Source: an uncultured Eubacteriales bacterium
Lineage (GTDB): Bacteria; Bacillota; Clostridia; Lachnospirales; Lachnospiraceae
Assembly: GCA_900317515.1 (NCBI GenBank)
Contig: ONHA01000020.1
Location: forward strand, 1 to 47,033
Direction: 5' to 3'
DNA length: 47,033 bases
The notes under the pieces are model-generated. The model saw only the letters and a program-made list of their open reading frames with translations, made no database searches and was not told the DNA's origin. Within the stretch, counting starts at the first letter, position 1, and every line of letters begins with the position of its first letter. Positions 13,749-30,763 of the stretch are shown here, piece after piece. The position numbers and the translations under genes were made by a program.

Positions 13749-15338
13749 TTATTCTACTGTCTTCCAGTCCTTAAGAATCCTCTTCTCACTGTCAAATGAA
13801 ACCCCGACTCTTACGAGCCTCCGGCTGTCCGCCGCATAGGGGGCGGCGCAGCCCTTCTCCTCGATCTGGGAGAGGGCCTCGTCGGCGGTGCAGTCGCGCT
13901 TGAACTCGAAAATATACACATACGCATCCGTCTCAACGATGCAGTCCGCCCTTCCCTCGGCGCTGTGAACCTCCGCATGGACATACTGACCAAGAAGCGT
14001 AAAGACAAGATAGATAACCGTCTGGAAATCATGCTCGAACGGCACATCCTTCGTCGTGTAGGGAATACTCGCATAAAGCGCCTTAAAAGCAGATGCGAGT
14101 TTTTCCGTCTCACCATTTTCAATGTATTCCGTGATCGACTGGATATCCTTCCCGGATTCCATACGCACCGCAGGAGCATACTCCGGCATCAGGGAATCAA
14201 GGAACCCGTATTTGACCTCCTCATTCGGAAAGCCAAGCGCAAGCCGCACGTTGATGCCGCTCTTCCTGACCCCGGTGATCGTGAGATAGCCGGTCTGGTA
14301 AAGAAGCGGCAGGGGATCTGTGCTGTCACCGCGGTAATCCATCAGGCGCTTCGGCGTCGCATATAAAGTACTATCGGAGAATGACCGGATATCAAATCCC
14401 ATCTCACATAATCTTCGGACAAGGAAGGTCGGCGTGCCTGTCTCGAACCAGTAATCACCGAACTCCATATTTGCAAAGCAGTTCAAAAGACTGAACGGGT
14501 TATAAACCCCCTCACTCGACTGATGGAACCGATAACCGTCATATTTTTCCTTAAGCCGTGCAAGGCACTCATCCTTTGAGAGCTCCTGCTGCACAGCCAG
14601 CCTGTCAATCTCAGGCCCGAAATTGTCCAGAAGCTCCTGCCCCGTGATTCCGCAGATCCCGGCATAGTCCGCGACCATCGAGATATCATAAAGCTGGTTC
14701 AGATCACTGAAAATGCTCACCTTGCTGAACTTCGTCACCCCGGTGATGTACACGAACCGGATATAATCATCGTAGCTCTTTAAGGTGCTGAAGAATCCCT
14801 TGAACACCGCCTTGTTGTGCTCCTCAAGTATCGGGTCCTTCATCACCTCAAGGAGCGGCTTGTCATACTCGTCCACGAGGATGACCACCCGGCGTCCGGT
14901 CCTGTCTACGGCCCGCTTTATAAGGTTCCGAAATCGCTCCTCCAACGGGCAGCCGTCCTCACTTGCCCCATATACCGCCTCATATTCTCTTAGGATGGCA
15001 CCGAGAACTTCGTAAAGCGCGGTCTCGCGCTGATAATTCGCCTGATTGAAATCAAAGTAAAAAACCGGATAGGGCTTCCATGCATCCGCATCCCCTTCCA
15101 CAAGCCGCTCGATCGCGAGTCCCTTAAAGAGCTCCTTTTTCCCCTCAAAGAAGGCCCTCATGGTGGAGAGCAGCAGACTCTTACCGAACCTTCTGGGACG
15201 GAACAGAAAATACTGCCGGCTCCCCTGGGTCAGCTTATAGATATATGCCGTTTTGTCGACATACAAAAACCCATCGCCGCGAAGGCTCTGAAAGCCCTGC
15301 ACGCCGATGGGAAGCTTACGCAAACCGTTTCCGTTCAT
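13749..15338 (-). CDS. AAA-ATPase_like / PD-(D/E)XK nuclease superfamily protein
   Basis: 529 residues. The N-terminal AAA-ATPase_like domain (about 5-280) starts LPIGVQGFQSLR, then VDKT, a Walker A-like FRPRRFGKSLLLS (about 46-58) and a Walker B-like VVILVDEYDKPLL. The C-terminal PD-(D/E)XK domain (DUF1703, about 420-525) has the core ADCIVETDAYVYIFEFKRD, with D, E and K in the expected D-x(n)-E-x-K arrangement. These proteins are abundant, multi-copy and fast-changing in Lachnospiraceae and Bacteroidetes, and are suspected of roles in defence or mobile DNA. The function is unknown. The gene is monocistronic with a TTGGAGG site. Confidence 0.9.
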   Translation of the reverse strand: MNGNGLRKLPIGVQGFQSLRGDGFLYVDKTAYIYKLTQGSRQYFLFRPRRFGKSLLLSTMRAFFEGKKELFKGLAIERLVEGDADAWKPYPVFYFDFNQANYQRETALYEVLGAILREYEAVYGASEDGCPLEERFRNLIKRAVDRTGRRVVILVDEYDKPLLEVMKDPILEEHNKAVFKGFFSTLKSYDDYIRFVYITGVTKFSKVSIFSDLNQLYDISMVADYAGICGITGQELLDNFGPEIDRLAVQQELSKDECLARLKEKYDGYRFHQSSEGVYNPFSLLNCFANMEFGDYWFETGTPTFLVRRLCEMGFDIRSFSDSTLYATPKRLMDYRGDSTDPLPLLYQTGYLTITGVRKSGINVRLALGFPNEEVKYGFLDSLMPEYAPAVRMESGKDIQSITEYIENGETEKLASAFKALYASIPYTTKDVPFEHDFQTVIYLVFTLLGQYVHAEVHSAEGRADCIVETDAYVYIFEFKRDCTADEALSQIEEKGCAAPYAADSRRLVRVGVSFDSEKRILKDWKTVE

Positions 15339-16416: not shown

Positions 16417-17403
16417 ATGAGCATCAGAATCGGTATCTTAGGCTACGGAAACTTAGGGCGGGGTGTCGAGAGCGCTATCCGCCAGAATGAAGATATGGAA
16501 CTGGCCGCCGTCTTCACGCGGCGCGCCCCGGAGAGCGTCTCCCTTCGGACCCCGGGCATCCCGGTCGTAAATGTCGATGAGATCGGCGCATGGAAGGACA
16601 AGATCGACGTCCTTATCCTCTGCGGCGGCAGCGCGACCGACCTGCCGGTCCAGACCCCGATCTACGCAAAGGATTTCAACGTGATCAACAGCTTCGATAC
16701 GCACGCGCGCATTCCGGAGCATTTTGCGGCGGTCGACGCCGCCGCGAAGGAAGGCGGCAAGGCCGGCCTCATCTCCTGCGGCTGGGACCCGGGCATGTTC
16801 TCGCTCCTCCGCATGATCTCCACCGCCTGCCTCCCGGACGGCAAAAACTACACCTTCTGGGGCCGCGGCGTCTCCCAGGGCCACTCTGACGCGGTCCGCC
16901 GCATCGAGGGCGTCGTCGATGCCCGCCAGTACACGATCCCGGTCGAGGATGCCGTCGCGCGTGTCCGCGCAGGCGAGCAGCCGGAGTTTGTGACCCGCGA
17001 GATGCACACCCGCGAGGTCTTCGTGGTCGCCGAGGAAGGTGCCGACAAGGCCCGCATCGAGAAAGAGATCAAGGAGATGCCGAACTACTTCGCCGATTAC
17101 GACACGACGGTGCATTTCATTTCCATGGACGAGATGAAGCGCGACCACGCCGGCCTCCCGCACGGCGGCTTCGTGATCCGCTCCGGCAGGACCGGTTTTG
17201 AAAATGAACACACCGAGATCATCGAGTACAACTTAAAGCTCGACTCGAACCCGGAGTTCACCTCCTCGGTCATCATCGCCTACGCCCGTGCGGTCGCCCG
17301 CATGGCCGCGGAGGGGAAGACCGGCTGCATGACCGTCTTCGATGTCCCGCCGGCATATCTCTCCCCGCTTTCGGGTGAGGAGCTCCGCGCGCATCTCTTA
17401 TAA
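16417..17403 (+). CDS. ddh: meso-diaminopimelate D-dehydrogenase
   Basis: 328 residues, the normal length for this enzyme, which reductively aminates L-2-amino-6-oxopimelate with NADPH and ammonia to give meso-DAP in one step. The N-terminal Rossmann motif is GILGYGNLGRGVE (about 5-17). CGGSATDLP, SFDTHARIP, SCGWDPGMFSLLR and FWGRGVSQGHSDAVRRI are hallmark substrate and cofactor segments. The ATG at 16417 follows GAGGAGG directly; the open frame continues far upstream on this strand only because of GC-rich codon bias opposite the rhomboid gene. It has its own promoter and a strong terminator. It supplies meso-DAP for lysine and peptidoglycan. Confidence 0.97.
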   Translation: MSIRIGILGYGNLGRGVESAIRQNEDMELAAVFTRRAPESVSLRTPGIPVVNVDEIGAWKDKIDVLILCGGSATDLPVQTPIYAKDFNVINSFDTHARIPEHFAAVDAAAKEGGKAGLISCGWDPGMFSLLRMISTACLPDGKNYTFWGRGVSQGHSDAVRRIEGVVDARQYTIPVEDAVARVRAGEQPEFVTREMHTREVFVVAEEGADKARIEKEIKEMPNYFADYDTTVHFISMDEMKRDHAGLPHGGFVIRSGRTGFENEHTEIIEYNLKLDSNPEFTSSVIIAYARAVARMAAEGKTGCMTVFDVPPAYLSPLSGEELRAHLL

Positions 17404-17416
17404 AATGAAAACCGAA

Positions 17417-17456
17417 GCGGCCTTTCTGCTCTGATGGGCAGAGAGGCCGCCTTTTT
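17417..17456 (+). terminator. Terminator of ddh
   Basis: Stem GCGGCCT...AGGCCGC with an inner CTGCTC/GGGCAG arm, followed by CTTTTTG. Confidence 0.88.
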
Positions 17457-17457
17457 G

Positions 17458-17486
17458 TTGTCCTTTTCGGGGTTTAAGGGTATACT
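17458..17486 (+). promoter_or_regulatory. Promoter of the Hsp70-like module
   Basis: TTGTCC (17458-17463) and TATACT (17481-17486) with a 17-bp spacer, about 38 bp before the first start codon. It begins within the T-run of the ddh terminator. Confidence 0.7.
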
Positions 17487-17523
17487 ATAAGGAGACACTT
17501 CCACAGAATAAGAAGGTAAGACT

Positions 17524-18348
17524 ATGAACGCCAGAGAACTCCTCGAAAATGACAAAGAGCGACTCTTAACCGGCCTCGCCGCCTCGGACTCGCCGGAGCA
17601 CGCCGTCCGCCTCTTAGACGACGAGCTCTCCCGCATCCAGCTGCGCCTCGCCGCCCAGCGCGAGGACGCCTCCGCCCACGGGCCACTCCTGGCCTCGGCC
17701 CGGGCAGCCCTCTCGCTCATCGACAGCGCGGGCGAGGTGAAGGTCTATTCCCCCCTGAAGGCGGGCTCCGGGAGAAGCGCCGCCCTGATTCCGGCCGCCG
17801 CTGCCGCAGGCTCGGCCGCCGGCGGCGCGCTGGTCCTTGCGCTCGCGCCCGCCGCGCTCTCCCCGGTCGGGATGGCGCTCATGGCTGCGGGTGCGGTGTT
17901 TGCATTTTTTGCGGGAATGCGGTTCGGCGCGGGAAAACCCGCCCGGCGAAACGAGGACAAGCTTGAGATCGTGCTCGACGGCGAGAAGATCTACCACAAC
18001 GTAAAGAACCTCCTCACGGTCGTCGACGAGACCGCCCGCGAGGCGGAAAATGAAAAGCTGACCGCGGCAGCCGTCGTCGAAGACGCCGAGATTCCCGAAG
18101 AGCTCCTTACGCTCTTCTCCCAGCTCCTCGAGGCAGCCTGCCGGAACCCGGACGACCCGGGGTCGAAGGACACGGTCTCGGAGATCCGCTACTATCTCCA
18201 CCGCCGCGGGATCGAGGTGCTTATGTTTGACGAGAGTACCCGGAAATATTTCAGTCTCATGCCCGGAGTGAAGACGAGAACTCTGAGGCCCGCGCTCGTG
18301 AAGGACAACGTCCTCCTTGTAAGGGGCCTCGCAGCCGGAGGTATGTGA
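17524..18348 (+). CDS. Unknown membrane partner of Hsp70-like ATPase
   Basis: 274 residues that I do not recognise. The N-terminal 70 residues are helical and charged. Two Ala/Gly-rich hydrophobic segments follow (about 86-110 and 113-133, with small-residue zipper patterns such as AAAGSAAGGA). A soluble region of about 135 residues comes next. Its centre (EIPEELLTLFSQLLEAACRN) and end (YYLHRRGIEVLMFDE) look helical then beta-rich. The C-terminal strand pattern is faintly like GrpE-type beta domains, which would fit a nucleotide-exchange partner, but this is speculative. One base separates its stop from the Hsp70-like gene, so the two are made together. There is no signal peptide at the N-terminus. 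Confidence 0.75.
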   Translation: MNARELLENDKERLLTGLAASDSPEHAVRLLDDELSRIQLRLAAQREDASAHGPLLASARAALSLIDSAGEVKVYSPLKAGSGRSAALIPAAAAAGSAAGGALVLALAPAALSPVGMALMAAGAVFAFFAGMRFGAGKPARRNEDKLEIVLDGEKIYHNVKNLLTVVDETAREAENEKLTAAAVVEDAEIPEELLTLFSQLLEAACRNPDDPGSKDTVSEIRYYLHRRGIEVLMFDESTRKYFSLMPGVKTRTLRPALVKDNVLLVRGLAAGGM

Positions 18349-18349
18349 A

Positions 18350-20260
18350 ATGGATAAATTCTACGGATTTGACCTCGGCGACGCCGAGAGCGCGATCGCC
18401 CTTCTTGACAGCCCGGACGCAAAGGAGCCCCGCATCCTGCCCGTCCGCGACGCGAAAAGCTTCATCACCGCCTACGCAAAGACCGCCGGCGGCGCCCTCC
18501 TCATCGGCGAGGAGGCCTGCCTTGCGCCGGACGCCTCCGAGCGGGCTCTCCGCTTCAAGAGCCGTTTCCTGACCGACCGCGCGAGCGCAAAGGACATCAA
18601 AAGCTTTGCCGCCGGCGTCCTCGGCGAGCTCTTAACGGGAGGCGACCTCATAAAAGGCGAGGATTCCTGCTTCTACATCGGCTGCCCGGCCGGGTGGGAT
18701 GCGGCGGCGCGCGAGCGCTACCGCGCGATTTTTGAAGATTTGAATTATCCGCCCGCGAGGATCATCTCCGAGTCCCGGGCGGCCCTGGTCGCGGCCTGCC
18801 AGTCGCGGCACCTCGAGGTCGGCTACGACATCTTATCGCGCCCGGTTCTCGTCGTCGACATCGGCTCCTCCACGACGGATTTCGCCTACATAAGAGGCGG
18901 CCGCGAGGTGGAGCTCAAGACCGCCGGCGAGGTCGCGCTCGGCGGCGGCCTCATGGACGAGATGCTGCTCGACCTCGCGGTCGAGGCCTCCCCCCACAGG
19001 AAGGAGATCCGGACGGTCTTTGAGGCCAGCACCCCCTGGAGAAGCTACGCCGAGTTTGCCGCGCGGCGCCTCAAGGAGAAGTATTTCGCCGACGAGGAGT
19101 ACTGGTCGGAGGCGGGCTGTGAGAACACCCTGCAGCTCTTCTACGAAAAACCCCTCGATCTGACCCTCCGCATGGACAAAAAGACTGCGGACCAGATCTT
19201 AAACGGAAAATGCAAACCCCTGGGCGGCCGCTCCTTCAAGGCGGTCTTCACGGAGAGCCTCCGCGAGCTTCGCGGGCGCCTTTCCGGCGAGCTCCCCGAG
19301 CTCCTCTTCCTGACCGGCGGCGTCTCCCGACTGCCGGCCGTCACCGAGTGGTGCCGGGAGGTATTTCCCGAGGCGGTCATCATCCGCGAGCGCTCACCCG
19401 AGTTTTCGGTGGCGAGGGGTCTTTCATTTTGCGGAAGGATCGACGCGGATGTCCGCGCGTTCCGCCGGGAGGTCAGGGAGCTCATCGACTCGACCGCGGT
19501 CGAGAAGATCGTCTCCGAGACCATCGACGACCTCTACATGCGGGCGGTCGACTCGCTCACGGGGCCGATTCTCGAGCATGCCGTCCTCCCCGTCATCTAC
19601 CGCTGGCGGGACGGCGAGATTCGCCGCCTTTCCGACATCGATGCGGAGCTTGAAACCGCCATCACGGCTTATCTGCACACGGACGAGGCCAAAAAGCTCC
19701 TCGTGAAGCCGGTCGCGGCCTGGCTTAAGCCCGTCTCCTACGCTCTCGAGGACCTGACGGTGCCGATCTGCACCCGCCACAAGGTGCCCTACCGGGCGCT
19801 CAGCCTCTCCTCCTACCTCTCGCTCTCCGAGATCGACATCCGGCTCGACACCAAAAATGTCTTCGCCGTCGACGAGATGACCTTCCTCATCGACACGATC
19901 ATCTCGGTGATCGTCGGCCTCCTTTGCGGCGGGAGCGGCGTCGCCCTCGTCTCGAGCGGCCCGACCGGGATCATCGCGGGCGCGGTCGTGACCCTGCTGG
20001 TCCTTCTCCTCGGCAAGAAGCCGATGCAGGAGATGCTCCTTCGGGCCGATATTCCGGTCCCGATGCGGAAGCTCATCCCGAAGAAGCGCCTTGCGGAGCG
20101 GCTCGCGGATCTTACGGACGACATCCGGAACAGCTTCTACACGAGCCTCGAGAAGGAGAAAAATGAAGAGATCTCCTCCCGCATGGTCCGCGAGATCTCC
20201 GAGCAGATCGAGACCTGCCTCATGCGGATGGCCGAGATCGTGGAAGTCCCGCTGGGGTGA
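18350..20260 (+). CDS. Membrane-anchored Hsp70/actin-like ATPase
   Basis: 636 residues. An N-terminal Hsp70/actin-fold ATPase has phosphate-1 FYGFDLGDAESAIALL (4-19), phosphate-2 VVDIGSSTTDFAYI (168-181) and the adenosine motif LFLTGGVSRLPAV (319-331). The spacing is shorter than in DnaK (about 380 residues for the ATPase). No DnaK substrate-binding beta-sandwich is evident. Instead a 130-residue helical region is followed by a glycine-rich hydrophobic hairpin (about 512-555, containing GGSGVALVSSGPTGIIAG) and a charged helical tail. The ATPase would therefore be tied to the membrane. It is translationally linked to the unknown membrane protein before it. The client or assembly it acts on is unknown; it is not DnaK, MreB or a sugar kinase. 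Confidence 0.85.
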   Translation: MDKFYGFDLGDAESAIALLDSPDAKEPRILPVRDAKSFITAYAKTAGGALLIGEEACLAPDASERALRFKSRFLTDRASAKDIKSFAAGVLGELLTGGDLIKGEDSCFYIGCPAGWDAAARERYRAIFEDLNYPPARIISESRAALVAACQSRHLEVGYDILSRPVLVVDIGSSTTDFAYIRGGREVELKTAGEVALGGGLMDEMLLDLAVEASPHRKEIRTVFEASTPWRSYAEFAARRLKEKYFADEEYWSEAGCENTLQLFYEKPLDLTLRMDKKTADQILNGKCKPLGGRSFKAVFTESLRELRGRLSGELPELLFLTGGVSRLPAVTEWCREVFPEAVIIRERSPEFSVARGLSFCGRIDADVRAFRREVRELIDSTAVEKIVSETIDDLYMRAVDSLTGPILEHAVLPVIYRWRDGEIRRLSDIDAELETAITAYLHTDEAKKLLVKPVAAWLKPVSYALEDLTVPICTRHKVPYRALSLSSYLSLSEIDIRLDTKNVFAVDEMTFLIDTIISVIVGLLCGGSGVALVSSGPTGIIAGAVVTLLVLLLGKKPMQEMLLRADIPVPMRKLIPKKRLAERLADLTDDIRNSFYTSLEKEKNEEISSRMVREISEQIETCLMRMAEIVEVPLG

Positions 20261-20318
20261 GTGCGCGGGGTTCATTTGTCAGAAATAGCTAATCTTTCTG
20301 ACTTTTGCGCGGTTAGCG

Positions 20319-20347
20319 TTGACTTTTTGCACAATTTTTAATACACT
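20319..20347 (+). promoter_or_regulatory. Promoter of FeoA-like gene
   Basis: TTGACT (20319-20324), a 17-bp spacer and TACACT (20342-20347). The 70-base leader that follows can pair CCCGCC with GGTAGCGGG around 20373-20420, so some structure near the ribosome site is likely. Confidence 0.65.
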
Positions 20348-20421
20348 CAGGGTAGATACTCGGGCAGTCCCGCCGGACAGATCATCGATTCAAAGCCTTT
20401 GACAGCGTTTGGTAGCGGGAG

Positions 20422-20652
20422 GTGAGAGAGATGATGAGTCTTGCCAGTGCGGAGAAGGGGAGTGACTGCCGGGTCATCTGGATGCTCGGTGAGTACGTGG
20501 AGGCCCTGAAGGCCCAGTTCAATGTCCGGGAGAACACGATTCTTTATGTGCTGCAGAACCTCAGCGGTTCGGTGTGTGTCCGGACCCCGGAGGGACGGAC
20601 GCTCGGGATGAGTCCCGAGGTCTCGCGGCGCATCAAGGTCGTCTGCATCTAA
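20422..20652 (+). CDS. FeoA-like SH3-fold small protein
   Basis: 76 residues (MREMMSLASAEKGSDCRVIW); a later ATG at codon 4 or 5 is possible, with GGGAGGTGAGAG just upstream. The layout of C-x-V-x-W, a helix (EYVEALKAQF), a turn (NVRENT), then ILYVLQN and GRTLGMSPEVSRRIKVV fits the FeoA domain: a small beta-barrel with a final G-x-x-L-x-M/L ... A-x-x-I-x-V strand. FeoA normally assists the FeoB ferrous iron transporter. No feoB lies in the window, so this is either a stand-alone FeoA-like protein or a related SH3 protein of other use. Confidence 0.65.
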   Translation: MREMMSLASAEKGSDCRVIWMLGEYVEALKAQFNVRENTILYVLQNLSGSVCVRTPEGRTLGMSPEVSRRIKVVCI

Positions 20653-20713
20653 AACTGCTCATAGAATGGCAAAGGCCGCTGCCGGTTTGGCAGCGGTCAT
20701 TTTTTCGCAGAGG

Positions 20714-20784
20714 GGGACGGTTCTTCGCGGAGGGGGACGGTTCTCCGCAGAGGAGAACCGTCCCCCTCCGCGAAGAACCGTCCC
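20714..20784. repeat. REP-like nested palindrome, GGGACGGTTCT family, copy 2
   Basis: Same two-word-per-arm structure as copy 1, with loop GCAGA and CGCGGAGG between words. A further partial unit (CGCAGAGG) precedes it. It lies between two convergent genes. Confidence 0.85.
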
Positions 20785-20795
20785 TCAAATACTAC

Positions 20796-22913
20796 TCAAA
20801 TATTAAACTCCGCCCGAACCGCAGAACGGCCCGTAAGAGAAGCGCTCAGCGGATCCGGCTGAGACGTCCCCGCAAAAACCGTAAAGCGTCTCCCTCGAAG
20901 CGCCCGCACGCCGGCATCATCGACGCTCGTGAACGCCCGGACAGGGAGGGAAACAGTCACCTTCTTCGTCTCACCGGGTGTAAGACGGACACGGGCGAAC
21001 CCCGCAAGCGCCGGGTGCGGCACCGCACAGGGGTCATCCTCTCCCTTTATGTAAACCTGTACGACATCCTCCGTCTCCTGCGCCCCCGCATTCGTGAGTG
21101 TCACGTGAGCCAGCGCGCCGGCAAACGTCTCCTTTCCCCGGATCTCGCCGACAGCGAGATCCGCCGCATACACATCCCCGTACGTCAGGCCGTAGCCGAA
21201 GGGATAGAGGGGCGTCCCCTCGTAATAGCGGTACGTGCGCCCCTTCATGGCGTAGTCCGTGAAAGCCGGCAGATCGTCCGTATTTTTGTAAAATGTTACG
21301 GGGAGCTTCCCGGAAGGCGAGCATTTTCCGAAAATGACATCCGCCGCATCGCGCCCGCCTCTCCCGCCCGGATACCAGGCCTGCAGAATCGCGGCCGCCT
21401 TCTCATCGGCAAGCGAGAGATTGACGGCGCTTCCGGTCATATTCACGAGAACAACCGGCTTCCCGCAGGACAGAACCGCCTCCATGAGCGCGCGCTGGGG
21501 GGCGGGGAGCTCCAGATCCTTTTTGTCACCCGAAGCGTCGGAATTGCCGGTATCGCCCTCCTCGCCCTCAAGGGTCTCATCGAGCCCGGTGACGAGGATC
21601 ACAACATCCGAATGCGCTGCGACAGCCATCGCCTCCGCAAGCCTGTCATTTCCGGCATCTGAGGAGAGCGACTCAATGTTCTTCTTCCAGAGATGGCAGC
21701 CTTCCGAGTAGAGGACCCGCACGCTCTCCGGAACCGCGTCCTGGATCCCCTCAAGGATCGTGACATAGCGGGAGGATGTGCCGTGGTAGTTGCCGATAAG
21801 GGCGCTGCGGCTGTTCGCGTTCGGCCCGATGACGCCGATCGTCTTAAGAGCGGTGACATCGAGCGGGAGAATTCCTTCATTTTTAAGAAGAACGAAGCTC
21901 TCCTTCGCCGCCCGGGAGGCAAGCGCCAGATGCTCCGGACTCTCAACCTCCGTGTAGGGGATATCATCGTAAGGCGTCCGGTCAAAGAGACCGAGGAGAA
22001 AACGTGTCGTAAAAAGTCTGACCGCGGACCGCCGGATGAGACTTTCATCGATCAGTCCCTCCCGGTATGCGTTCATCACGCGCTCGTAGGTGCAGCCGCA
22101 GTTGAGGTCGCAGCCGTGCGTCAGCGCGAGTGTCACGGATTCCTCCGGGCGGGAGGTCACCTTGTGATTTTCATGAAAATCGCGAACCGCCCAGCAGTCA
22201 GAGACGAAATGCCCGTCAAAGCCCCATTTTCCCCGCAGGATATCATCCATGAGCGGTCCGTTGGCGCAGCAGGGCTCGCCGTTCGTCCGATTGTAAGCAC
22301 CCATGACGGCCTCGACATGCGCCTCCGTGACGCAGGCCTCAAACGCCGGCAGGTAAGTCTCCTCCAGATCCTTGGGCGAAGCCTCCGCATTAAAGAAATG
22401 CCGCAGCGCCTCGGGCCCGGAGTGCACCGCAAAATGCTTGACGCAGGCAGCCGCCTTCATGTATTCGCCGTCTCCCTGCAGACCTTTTATAAAATGAACC
22501 CCGAGCCGCGACGTGAGAAACGGATCCTCGCCGTAGGTCTCGTGACCGCGGCCCCAGCGGGGATCGCGGAAAATATTTACGTTCGGGGACCAGAACGTGA
22601 GCCCCTTATAGATGTCACGGTCGCCCCGCTTTGCCTGTTCATTGTATTTGGCGCGCCCTTCCACGGCGATGCAGTCTCCGATCTCCTCCATGAGCTCCGT
22701 ATCGAAGGCTGCCGCAAGGCCGATTGCCTGAGGAAATACCGTCGCAGTGCCGGCCCGGGCCACCCCGTGCAGGCCTTCATTCCACCAGTTGTAGGCGGGG
22801 ATCCCGAGCCGCGGGATCGCCTCCGCATTAAATTTGAGCTGGGATGCCATCTCCTCGACCGTCATTTTTGCGACCAGTTCTTCCGCTTGCTTCTTCGCTT
22901 TAATCTTGTCCAT
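20796..22913 (-). CDS. Glycoside hydrolase family 3 (beta-xylosidase/glucosidase type)
   Basis: 705 residues. The N-terminal catalytic barrel has NEGLHGVARAGTATVFPQAI and the nucleophile aspartate in HFVSDCWAVRDF. A second alpha/beta domain with GVIGPNANSR and a KGRTYRYYEGTPLYPFGYGLTY segment follows, with a fibronectin III-like C-terminal domain (about 600-700). There is no signal peptide, so it acts in the cytoplasm on imported oligosaccharides. The LHGV...TVFPQ pattern is typical of beta-xylosidase-like GH3 enzymes, but specificity cannot be fixed. The start has an AGGGAG site. It sits divergent from an AraC regulator and close to a sugar importer. Confidence 0.93.
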   Translation of the reverse strand: MDKIKAKKQAEELVAKMTVEEMASQLKFNAEAIPRLGIPAYNWWNEGLHGVARAGTATVFPQAIGLAAAFDTELMEEIGDCIAVEGRAKYNEQAKRGDRDIYKGLTFWSPNVNIFRDPRWGRGHETYGEDPFLTSRLGVHFIKGLQGDGEYMKAAACVKHFAVHSGPEALRHFFNAEASPKDLEETYLPAFEACVTEAHVEAVMGAYNRTNGEPCCANGPLMDDILRGKWGFDGHFVSDCWAVRDFHENHKVTSRPEESVTLALTHGCDLNCGCTYERVMNAYREGLIDESLIRRSAVRLFTTRFLLGLFDRTPYDDIPYTEVESPEHLALASRAAKESFVLLKNEGILPLDVTALKTIGVIGPNANSRSALIGNYHGTSSRYVTILEGIQDAVPESVRVLYSEGCHLWKKNIESLSSDAGNDRLAEAMAVAAHSDVVILVTGLDETLEGEEGDTGNSDASGDKKDLELPAPQRALMEAVLSCGKPVVLVNMTGSAVNLSLADEKAAAILQAWYPGGRGGRDAADVIFGKCSPSGKLPVTFYKNTDDLPAFTDYAMKGRTYRYYEGTPLYPFGYGLTYGDVYAADLAVGEIRGKETFAGALAHVTLTNAGAQETEDVVQVYIKGEDDPCAVPHPALAGFARVRLTPGETKKVTVSLPVRAFTSVDDAGVRALRGRRFTVFAGTSQPDPLSASLTGRSAVRAEFNI

Positions 22914-30569: not shown

Positions 30570-30763
30570 GGTATCCTCCGTCCGGCAAAATTCTAAAGAG
30601 GACGGTCCGCGTGGGACCGTCCCGTCATAAAGAGCGGAAAATCATTAAATTCCGGAAATTCCGGAATGTACCGGATCGTACACGGGCGGCTGCCTGCGAA
30701 GCCTTTTATGAAGCCCGTGCCTGACCCGCCGCAGGCGCAAACGCGTTTCCGCTCAGGATGACC
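30570..30763 (-). other. Structured leader upstream of reverse transcriptase gene
   Basis: A 194-bp gene-free stretch with four dyads. GGACGGTCC/GGACCGTCC lies at 30600-30622. A 19-bp palindrome (ATTCCGGAA around a central A, 30649-30667) is followed by a further CCGGAT. CACGGGC (30681-30687) pairs with GCCCGTG (30713-30719). A GCCTG/CAGGC hairpin lies at 30719-30736. It may be a promoter and operator, or encode an RNA partner for the RT. Confidence 0.4.

Follow-up and report, generated by a model that had tools for sequence, protein, structure and literature searches.

The locus described here lies in a stretch of 47,033 nucleotides from an uncultured Eubacteriales bacterium of the family Lachnospiraceae (contig ONHA01000020.1 of assembly GCA_900317515.1, forward strand), which in its full length is called the window. 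The locus consists of two genes, A and B, which encode a membrane protein and an Hsp70-like ATPase, each with a hydrophobic hairpin (Table 1). A first-pass annotation, made from the sequence alone, had placed two open reading frames at 17524-18348 and 18350-20260. Both are present as described, with a single base (18349) between the TGA stop codon of A and the ATG start codon of B at 18350. The further claim that the partner of the ATPase carries a membrane hairpin of its own and belongs to the same apparent transcription unit is supported; by hydropathy, A has a two-part hydrophobic stretch at about residues 86-133.

Table 1. Features of the A-B locus in window coordinates (pLDDT, predicted local distance difference test score)
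Feature	Position	Strand	Description and basis
Gene A	17524..18348	+	274-amino-acid membrane protein, GrpE-like by predicted fold of the C-terminal half
A residues 86-133	17779..17922	+	Hydrophobic Ala/Gly-rich hairpin (Kyte-Doolittle scan; low pLDDT in part)
A residues 146-274	17959..18345	+	Predicted helix 153-187, helices 192-207 and 212-227, beta domain 231-272 (model, alignment)
Gene B	18350..20260	+	636-amino-acid Hsp70-like ATPase with membrane hairpin
B residues 1-380	18350..19489	+	Hsp70-type nucleotide-binding domain; K70, E141, D170 and T175 aligned with DnaK catalytic residues
B residues 383-476	19496..19777	+	Predicted all-helical region where DnaK has its linker and beta substrate domain (structure model)
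B residues 504-559	19859..20026	+	Glycine-rich hydrophobic hairpin (hydropathy, alignment; mostly pLDDT <50)
B residues 578-631	20081..20242	+	C-terminal helices after the hairpin, with a basic stretch in front (structure model, sequence)
Terminator-like stem	17417..17450	+	15 pairs and a T-run, behind the diaminopimelate dehydrogenase gene
Sigma-70-type promoter-like site	17458..17486	+	TTGTCC-17-TATACT ahead of A; identified by consensus alone (9 of 12 bases matched)
Shine-Dalgarno-like GGAGG	18337..18341	+	Within the 3' end of A, 8 bases before B

Conservation and spread of the gene pair

The two genes are conserved together within their genus. Among 37 genomes of the genus, B is found in 22 and A in 22, with both in 21, and because the genes recur in other genomes of the genus they cannot be regarded as chance reading frames. 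In the 21 other genomes that contain it, B is matched at 58-65% identity over nearly its full length in 18 and by split or cut hits (55-91% identity) in 3; A, also in 21 other genomes, is matched at 28-81%. The genomes with a single gene are explained by contig ends: in G034 the B match stops at such an end, and in G001 the distance from A to one is about 110 bases. A search of 24 further genomes in the order found neither gene. Within the genus, the pair is missing from some near-complete genomes, e.g., G027 (98% complete, one contig), which indicates that its presence is patchy.

Gene order was compared at 29 loci: that of the window, 20 others in the genus and 8 taken from named records. 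A is present at 28 of these and B at 28; the genes are adjacent at 27, and the two misses fall at contig ends. No other gene family occurs beside the pair at more than 4 of the 29 loci. Because some of the loci come from near relatives, or perhaps from the same organism reached by two routes, they do not represent 29 independent insertions. In the window, the product of the upstream gene matches the C-terminal domain of diaminopimelate dehydrogenase, and the gene downstream of B, on the opposite strand, encodes a family 3 glycoside hydrolase. A consensus scan of positions 17200-20800 gave 2 promoter-like and 9 terminator-like sites, versus 0.3 and 3.1, respectively, in shuffled sequences. As no neighbour recurs at more than 4 of the loci, the pair fits its earlier description as an independent module.

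Two minor observations concern B in single genomes. G010 has one full (C15 68-1975) and one partial (C28 36-821) B match on two contigs, and may therefore hold two copies. Weak additional B hits in G000, G004 and G020 (expectation value, E, 1e-7 to 5e-6) were taken for DnaK-like genes and left uncounted, that in G000 after a check and the others by score. The G000 gene (C15, L060 1626-3392, minus strand) is DnaK-like and encodes 588 amino acids; the gene it adjoins looks like one for an anaerobic ribonucleotide reductase, and the grpE match of this genome is on another contig, C25.

A pattern-seeded, non-exhaustive scan of 84,980 species genomes found 27 loci, one of which is a contig end. Eighteen show 59-84% identity and have record titles that are mostly Lachnospiraceae; eight more (L047-L054) show 28-40% identity and are titled Clostridia, Clostridiales or Christensenellaceae. 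Ruminant guts are named in several of the titles. Among the named records with both genes is that of Lachnospiraceae bacterium NK3A20. At all eight distant loci an A gene is near B, directly upstream in seven and 533 bases downstream in L053. When a profile of 29 A sequences from the genus and its near relatives (the window's own A included twice) was run on 425 open reading frames, these eight genes and the neighbour of a B gene in Calothrix took ranks 1-9 (E 1e-29 to 5e-7; next frame 0.039), and none of the nine had been used in training.

The Calothrix B gene is on plasmid AP018209 of Calothrix brevissima NIES-22 (26% identity over 97%, E 7e-56), which is typed as conjugative; the A relative is upstream of B and phage-type integrase genes are on both sides. 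In this record the A relative (L100 6997-7803) ends prematurely and its conserved C-terminal motif lies past the stop in another frame, so that this copy is either broken or misread. It is the only relative of the pair in the plasmid collection; a Nocardia plasmid hit (41% coverage) was assumed, unchecked, to be an ordinary Hsp70. Phage records and viral contigs contain no match to the pair, leaving a phage origin unsupported.

B was also matched in two other distant genomes, G257 (E 7e-33) and G459 (E 2e-19); in each an A-shaped gene lies upstream of it, and in G459 the gap is again one base. A hit of the A profile in G287 was judged to be due to chance (52 of 294 positions, with no B-like frame in the 6.2 kb read). 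The B profile separates the B genes of the pair (78-420 bits) from ordinary Hsp70s (33 bits or less) in the same test. Of 391 genomes sampled from the class, 2 (the window's own and G257) have B at E<=1e-20, and of 398 sampled from the phylum, 2 (the window's own and G459) have it at E<=1e-18. The pair is therefore rare in these samples. Judged from these comparisons, it is present in some gut and rumen bacteria and on at least one cyanobacterial plasmid. The expectation that the genes would be conserved together in related genomes has thus held at 27 of the 29 compared loci, at all eight distant Clostridia loci and on the Calothrix plasmid.

Protein B and the Hsp70 family

B can be placed in the Hsp70 superfamily both by family model and by predicted structure. 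The window protein passes the Pfam HSP70 cut-off (22.9 bits, cut-off 20.6; E 3e-5); at E<=0.01 the model recognises 16 of the 19 aligned B proteins. A profile built from the 19 proteins gave 125 matches to PDB sequences at E<=1, the best 60 of which are all Hsp70s (top E 7.3e-11). The AlphaFold model of B (mean pLDDT 75; predicted template modelling score, pTM, 0.69) has the nucleotide-binding fold, and Foldseek returned 590 PDB matches to it at E<=0.001, the best 50 being all of the Hsp70 family (top E 1e-14). In an alignment with the DnaK-like protein of its own genome, K70, E141, D170 and T175 of B fall on the lysine, glutamate, aspartate and threonine that are catalytic in DnaK. All four are invariant in the 19 aligned B proteins and are kept in the far copies of L059, Calothrix and G459. 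The first-pass description of an Hsp70-fold ATPase with a membrane hairpin is therefore supported, whereas its remark that the protein does not look like DnaK was too strong, Hsp70-family chains being the closest listed structures by both profile and fold.

B nevertheless differs from DnaK in several respects. Identity is 14-21% in the listed fold alignments, and the NCBIfam DnaK models score far under cut-off with the window protein. DnaK-type chaperones have an interdomain linker with the motif VLLLDV; this motif is not in the B sequence. The model contains no strand of three or more residues past residue 346, and so no beta substrate domain; the hydrophobic linker and the beta substrate-binding domain with helical lid that would mark a DnaK chaperone proper are thus not seen in B. 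What follows the ATPase domain in the model is a series of helices (354-476), then the hydrophobic stretch, which a Kyte-Doolittle scan resolves into two parts at about residues 504-559, and then C-terminal helices. The hairpin had been described as standing in place of the substrate domain. The substrate domain is indeed not predicted, but about 100 residues of predicted helices precede the hairpin, and 'in place of' is therefore a simplification. A basic stretch follows the hairpin and suggests a cytoplasmic C terminus, in which case the hairpin would enter and leave the membrane on the same face.

The helical region raises the possibility that B is a chaperone of membrane proteins, in which residues 383-476 would bind clients near the membrane and the pair would guard or insert membrane proteins, with A as the exchange factor. 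The machine itself would be that of the favoured interpretation set out below, with a protein as its client. An Hsp70-type core joined to a helical region in which W419, L427 and W458 are invariant in all 19 proteins would suit this role. An ordinary GrpE is encoded elsewhere in 60 of the 61 genomes searched, the window's own genome included, so that the pair would be an extra, specialised set. The absence of a predicted beta substrate domain argues against a chaperone function, as does the lack of any gene, J-domain genes included, beside the pair at more than 4 of the 29 loci, and we consider this scenario unlikely, if still a serious contender.

Another possible identity for B is that of a membrane-pinned, actin-like filament former of the MreB, ParM, FtsA or PilM type, with A as a membrane scaffold; the function would then be filament assembly and not nucleotide exchange. 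Actin-type models do match: MreB_Mbl in 14 of the 19 B proteins at E<=0.01 (best 4.3e-7) and ParM_N in 4 of the 19. For the window protein, the lowest family E in any library is that of a PHROG partition-protein family (4.6e-7, over 54 residues round the phosphate motif), which is lower than that of Pfam HSP70. The G459 protein matches HSP70 with 55.1 bits and also passes the MreB_Mbl cut-off (31.5 bits, cut-off 27), and those of Calothrix and G257 match actin-type models only, weakly. Actin-like motifs are, however, common to the whole Hsp70/actin superfamily. The window protein is under cut-off with the Pfam FtsA and MreB models and far under it with the NCBIfam PilM-like model, and it does not join an MreB, ParM or FtsA family score above cut-off to an actin-like closest fold: the best 50 listed folds, like the best 60 listed PDB sequence matches, are all Hsp70s. 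For the identity of B, these listed fold and profile matches weigh more than the actin-type family matches. The resemblance of A to GrpE in predicted fold, described below, also speaks against a filament former, which we think decidedly unlikely. The general HSP70 model is the only one in Pfam or NCBIfam above cut-off, PADLOC provides nothing usable, and PHROGs provide the 54-residue local match; no match of the ATPase to a described Hsp70-like family of known function emerged that would speak against the first-pass reading.

Protein A and its predicted likeness to GrpE

A has no usable match in Pfam, NCBIfam, PADLOC or PHROGs, its aligned relatives are likewise without a usable family match, and a PDB profile search gave no meaningful hit. 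The structure model of A (mean pLDDT 80.5; block means of at least 90 in residues 151-170 and 191-270, and of 64-83 in 171-190) consists, in order, of N-terminal helices, the hydrophobic stretch at 86-133, a helix of 35 residues, a pair of shorter ones and a small beta domain. GrpE, according to a review (PMC12987570), has a stalk helix, a short helical domain and a C-terminal beta wing that wedges open the ATPase domain of Hsp70, and the order of elements in the A model agrees with this. A Foldseek search of 350,542 PDB chains with the C-terminal half of A gave 23 hits. The first is GrpE chain 1dkg_A, from a complex with DnaK (probability 0.92, E 0.15), and the second is GrpE chain 9a81_A (E 0.16, probability 0.44); the remaining hits have probabilities of 0.12 or less. 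All residues that are invariant across the 18 aligned A proteins, among them E203, L225, F243, R255-P256-A257 and G268, fall in this half.

Like GrpE, A is the gene partner of an Hsp70-type protein and is predicted to have a stalk helix, short helices and a beta domain in this order, and GrpE chains are its two best PDB fold matches. It differs by its membrane hairpin and by a helical domain at the N terminus, and neither the Pfam GrpE model nor profile-profile comparison matches it. Because the profile comparison is not significant, we describe A as GrpE-like by predicted fold and not as a proven homologue. The earlier suggestion that the partner might be an exchange factor gains support from the two GrpE matches, albeit at an E of 0.15. 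A J-domain was also considered for A and was rejected, as the HPD motif is not in the sequence (read by eye).

A candidate membrane machine and its alternatives

The interpretation that we favour, with slightly better than even confidence, is that the pair encodes a membrane-anchored Hsp70-like ATPase (B) and its own GrpE-like exchange partner (A), which together would form a two-protein, ATP-driven machine on the membrane. The locus supplies a conserved gene pair, an Hsp70-type domain with conserved catalytic residues, and a hydrophobic stretch in each protein. The machine would act at the cytoplasmic membrane, on its inner face. B, as an Hsp70-type ATPase without a peptide-binding domain, would relay its nucleotide state through the helical region to the glycine-rich hairpin. 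A would be anchored there too, through a hairpin of its own, with its GrpE-like arm of stalk helix, short helices and beta wing set against the ATPase domain of B. We infer from the predicted folds that A may drive nucleotide exchange on B in the manner of GrpE, opening the ATPase domain so that ADP is released and B can cycle again. How the ATPase is coupled to the hairpin, and what kind of work results, we can only infer; the work would be done on or in the membrane, on the packing of the hairpins, on a membrane-protein client or on the membrane itself, and not on soluble peptides. The first-pass annotation had suggested that the ATPase could drive membrane remodelling, secretion or a chaperone step.

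A number of observations weigh against this interpretation. The first phosphate motif of DnaK, DLGTT(N), is replaced in B proteins by DLGDAE (as in the window), DLGDGE or DLGHGE, G459 excepted, a change that could affect hydrolysis. A large part of the B hairpin is modelled at pLDDT <50, and the Calothrix and G257 proteins, with their weak actin-family matches, have no Pfam HSP70 match at E<=0.05. In the case of A, the Foldseek E of 0.15 is not significant alone, the template modelling scores are 0.24/0.39 and the model has a pTM of 0.49. Pfam GrpE matches none of the 18 A proteins at E<=0.1. Comparison of A with GrpE by hhalign, made first as 8 comparisons and then with deeper alignments (39 A and 30 GrpE sequences) on three regions, is not significant, with probabilities of 0.09-3.3% in all 13 listed comparisons; for the GrpE set, 5 of 30 fetched loci without the gene-finding motif were dropped and 5 long-type GrpE ends from 8 loci were added. 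The highest values (2.3 and 3.3) come from the N-terminal region and not from the GrpE-like part, for which they are 2.0 or less. Finally, the neighbours of B in G257 and G459 are not significant against the A profile (E 0.067 and no hit, respectively), a search of the G257 genome with the A profile found no match, and a larger A profile gave 14.8 bits to an unrelated reading frame. The evidence for kinship of these two neighbours is therefore limited to their position, their hydrophobic segments and a similar end.

If the non-significant profile comparison and the Foldseek E are taken at face value, A could be a mere anchor or assembly partner, with a GrpE-like shape that is convergent and no exchange activity. 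Chance alone, however, would hardly put GrpE in both of the first two places among 350,542 chains when the query is the neighbour of an Hsp70, and the residues invariant in all 18 A proteins are in the GrpE-like half. An anchoring role alone thus seems to us rather unlikely.

Hsp70s are best known as soluble, peptide-holding chaperones. At this locus an Hsp70-like ATPase and an apparent exchange partner both seem to be built into the membrane, and the peptide-holding part is not seen. In its broadest form, the favoured interpretation of a membrane-anchored ATPase with its exchange partner would mean that the Hsp70 engine, elsewhere a peptide chaperone, has become a membrane machine: its ATPase domain would be coupled to a glycine-rich transmembrane hairpin and recharged by a dedicated, membrane-anchored GrpE-like exchange factor, and a mobile cassette of the two genes would carry it across phyla. 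We advance this wider claim tentatively, with somewhat less than even confidence. If true, the Hsp70-GrpE cycle has been re-used for work in the membrane, in a small two-gene form that would be directly testable in a laboratory host. Among the papers listed in searches of an open-access library, in most cases the first 8-15 of a larger set (12 of 835 in one), none describes the pair.

The gene neighbourhoods bear on whether the pair could be an anti-phage or other conflict cassette, in which an Hsp70 switch would trigger membrane damage through the hairpins. Patchy presence and varied gene contexts are compatible with such a role, as is the Calothrix copy, flanked by phage-type integrase genes on a conjugative-type plasmid. 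Published conflict systems, moreover, combine HSP70 with GrpE, and a subset of them has an HSP70 that lacks the peptide-binding domain (PMC7159879). The neighbour scan gives a different picture. It covered 74 proteins from 21 loci, from reading frames chosen by length, some of which may be in the wrong frame; 5 of 79 were left out, namely two A genes and three doubtful frames (102, 112 and 442 amino acids). Among the 25 PADLOC families listed of 32, which include Cas6, HerA-type and helicase models, none matches more than one neighbour, and no listed Pfam family matches more than two. For the pair itself, PADLOC yields nothing for A and one match at 0.061 for B, which does not place it among known defence systems. 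We consider a conflict function very improbable. The gene beside the G459 pair (L102 2738-3490) is Cas6-like by sequence, and the Cas6 models match one of the 74 neighbours, unnamed.

Two groups of described systems invite comparison with the membrane pair. The GTPase-centred GAP1-N2 conflict systems of actinobacteria and Firmicutes contain HSP70 and GrpE, joined in some cases by an HSP70 that has no peptide-binding domain (PMC7159879); the similarity thus extends to a shortened HSP70 near GrpE and to Firmicutes as hosts. The present system differs in that only two genes recur and both products have membrane hairpins, which the accessible text does not mention for the GAP1-N2 proteins. GTPase, FNIII and DnaJ genes are not recurrent neighbours of the pair; no gene is found there at more than 4 of the 29 loci, although no model search was aimed at GAP1-N2. 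CoCoNuT systems also include divergent Hsp70-like ATPases in an accessory setting; these proteins have both nucleotide-binding and substrate-binding domains, accompany McrBC-type genes and have RNA as their predicted ligand (PMC11090510).

A separate arrangement was seen in other families of the order (L092-L099). Most of these eight loci line up an Hsp70, a long GrpE-ended protein (320-645 amino acids) and up to three further Hsp70-like genes, and these rows resemble the HSP70/GrpE theme of PMC7159879. The rows often appear to stand behind a TPR protein, and the last Hsp70 is apparently fused to a vWA-like end. L097 shows just two such genes, the GrpE-ended one and a single Hsp70-like one.

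Elsewhere in the window, positions 13749-15338 on the minus strand encode a protein with AAA-ATPase_like and PDDEXK_9 matches. The sole Rfam match in the window above the gathering score is an RT-5 RNA (RF03026, 93.3 bits) at 30637-30740, also on the minus strand.

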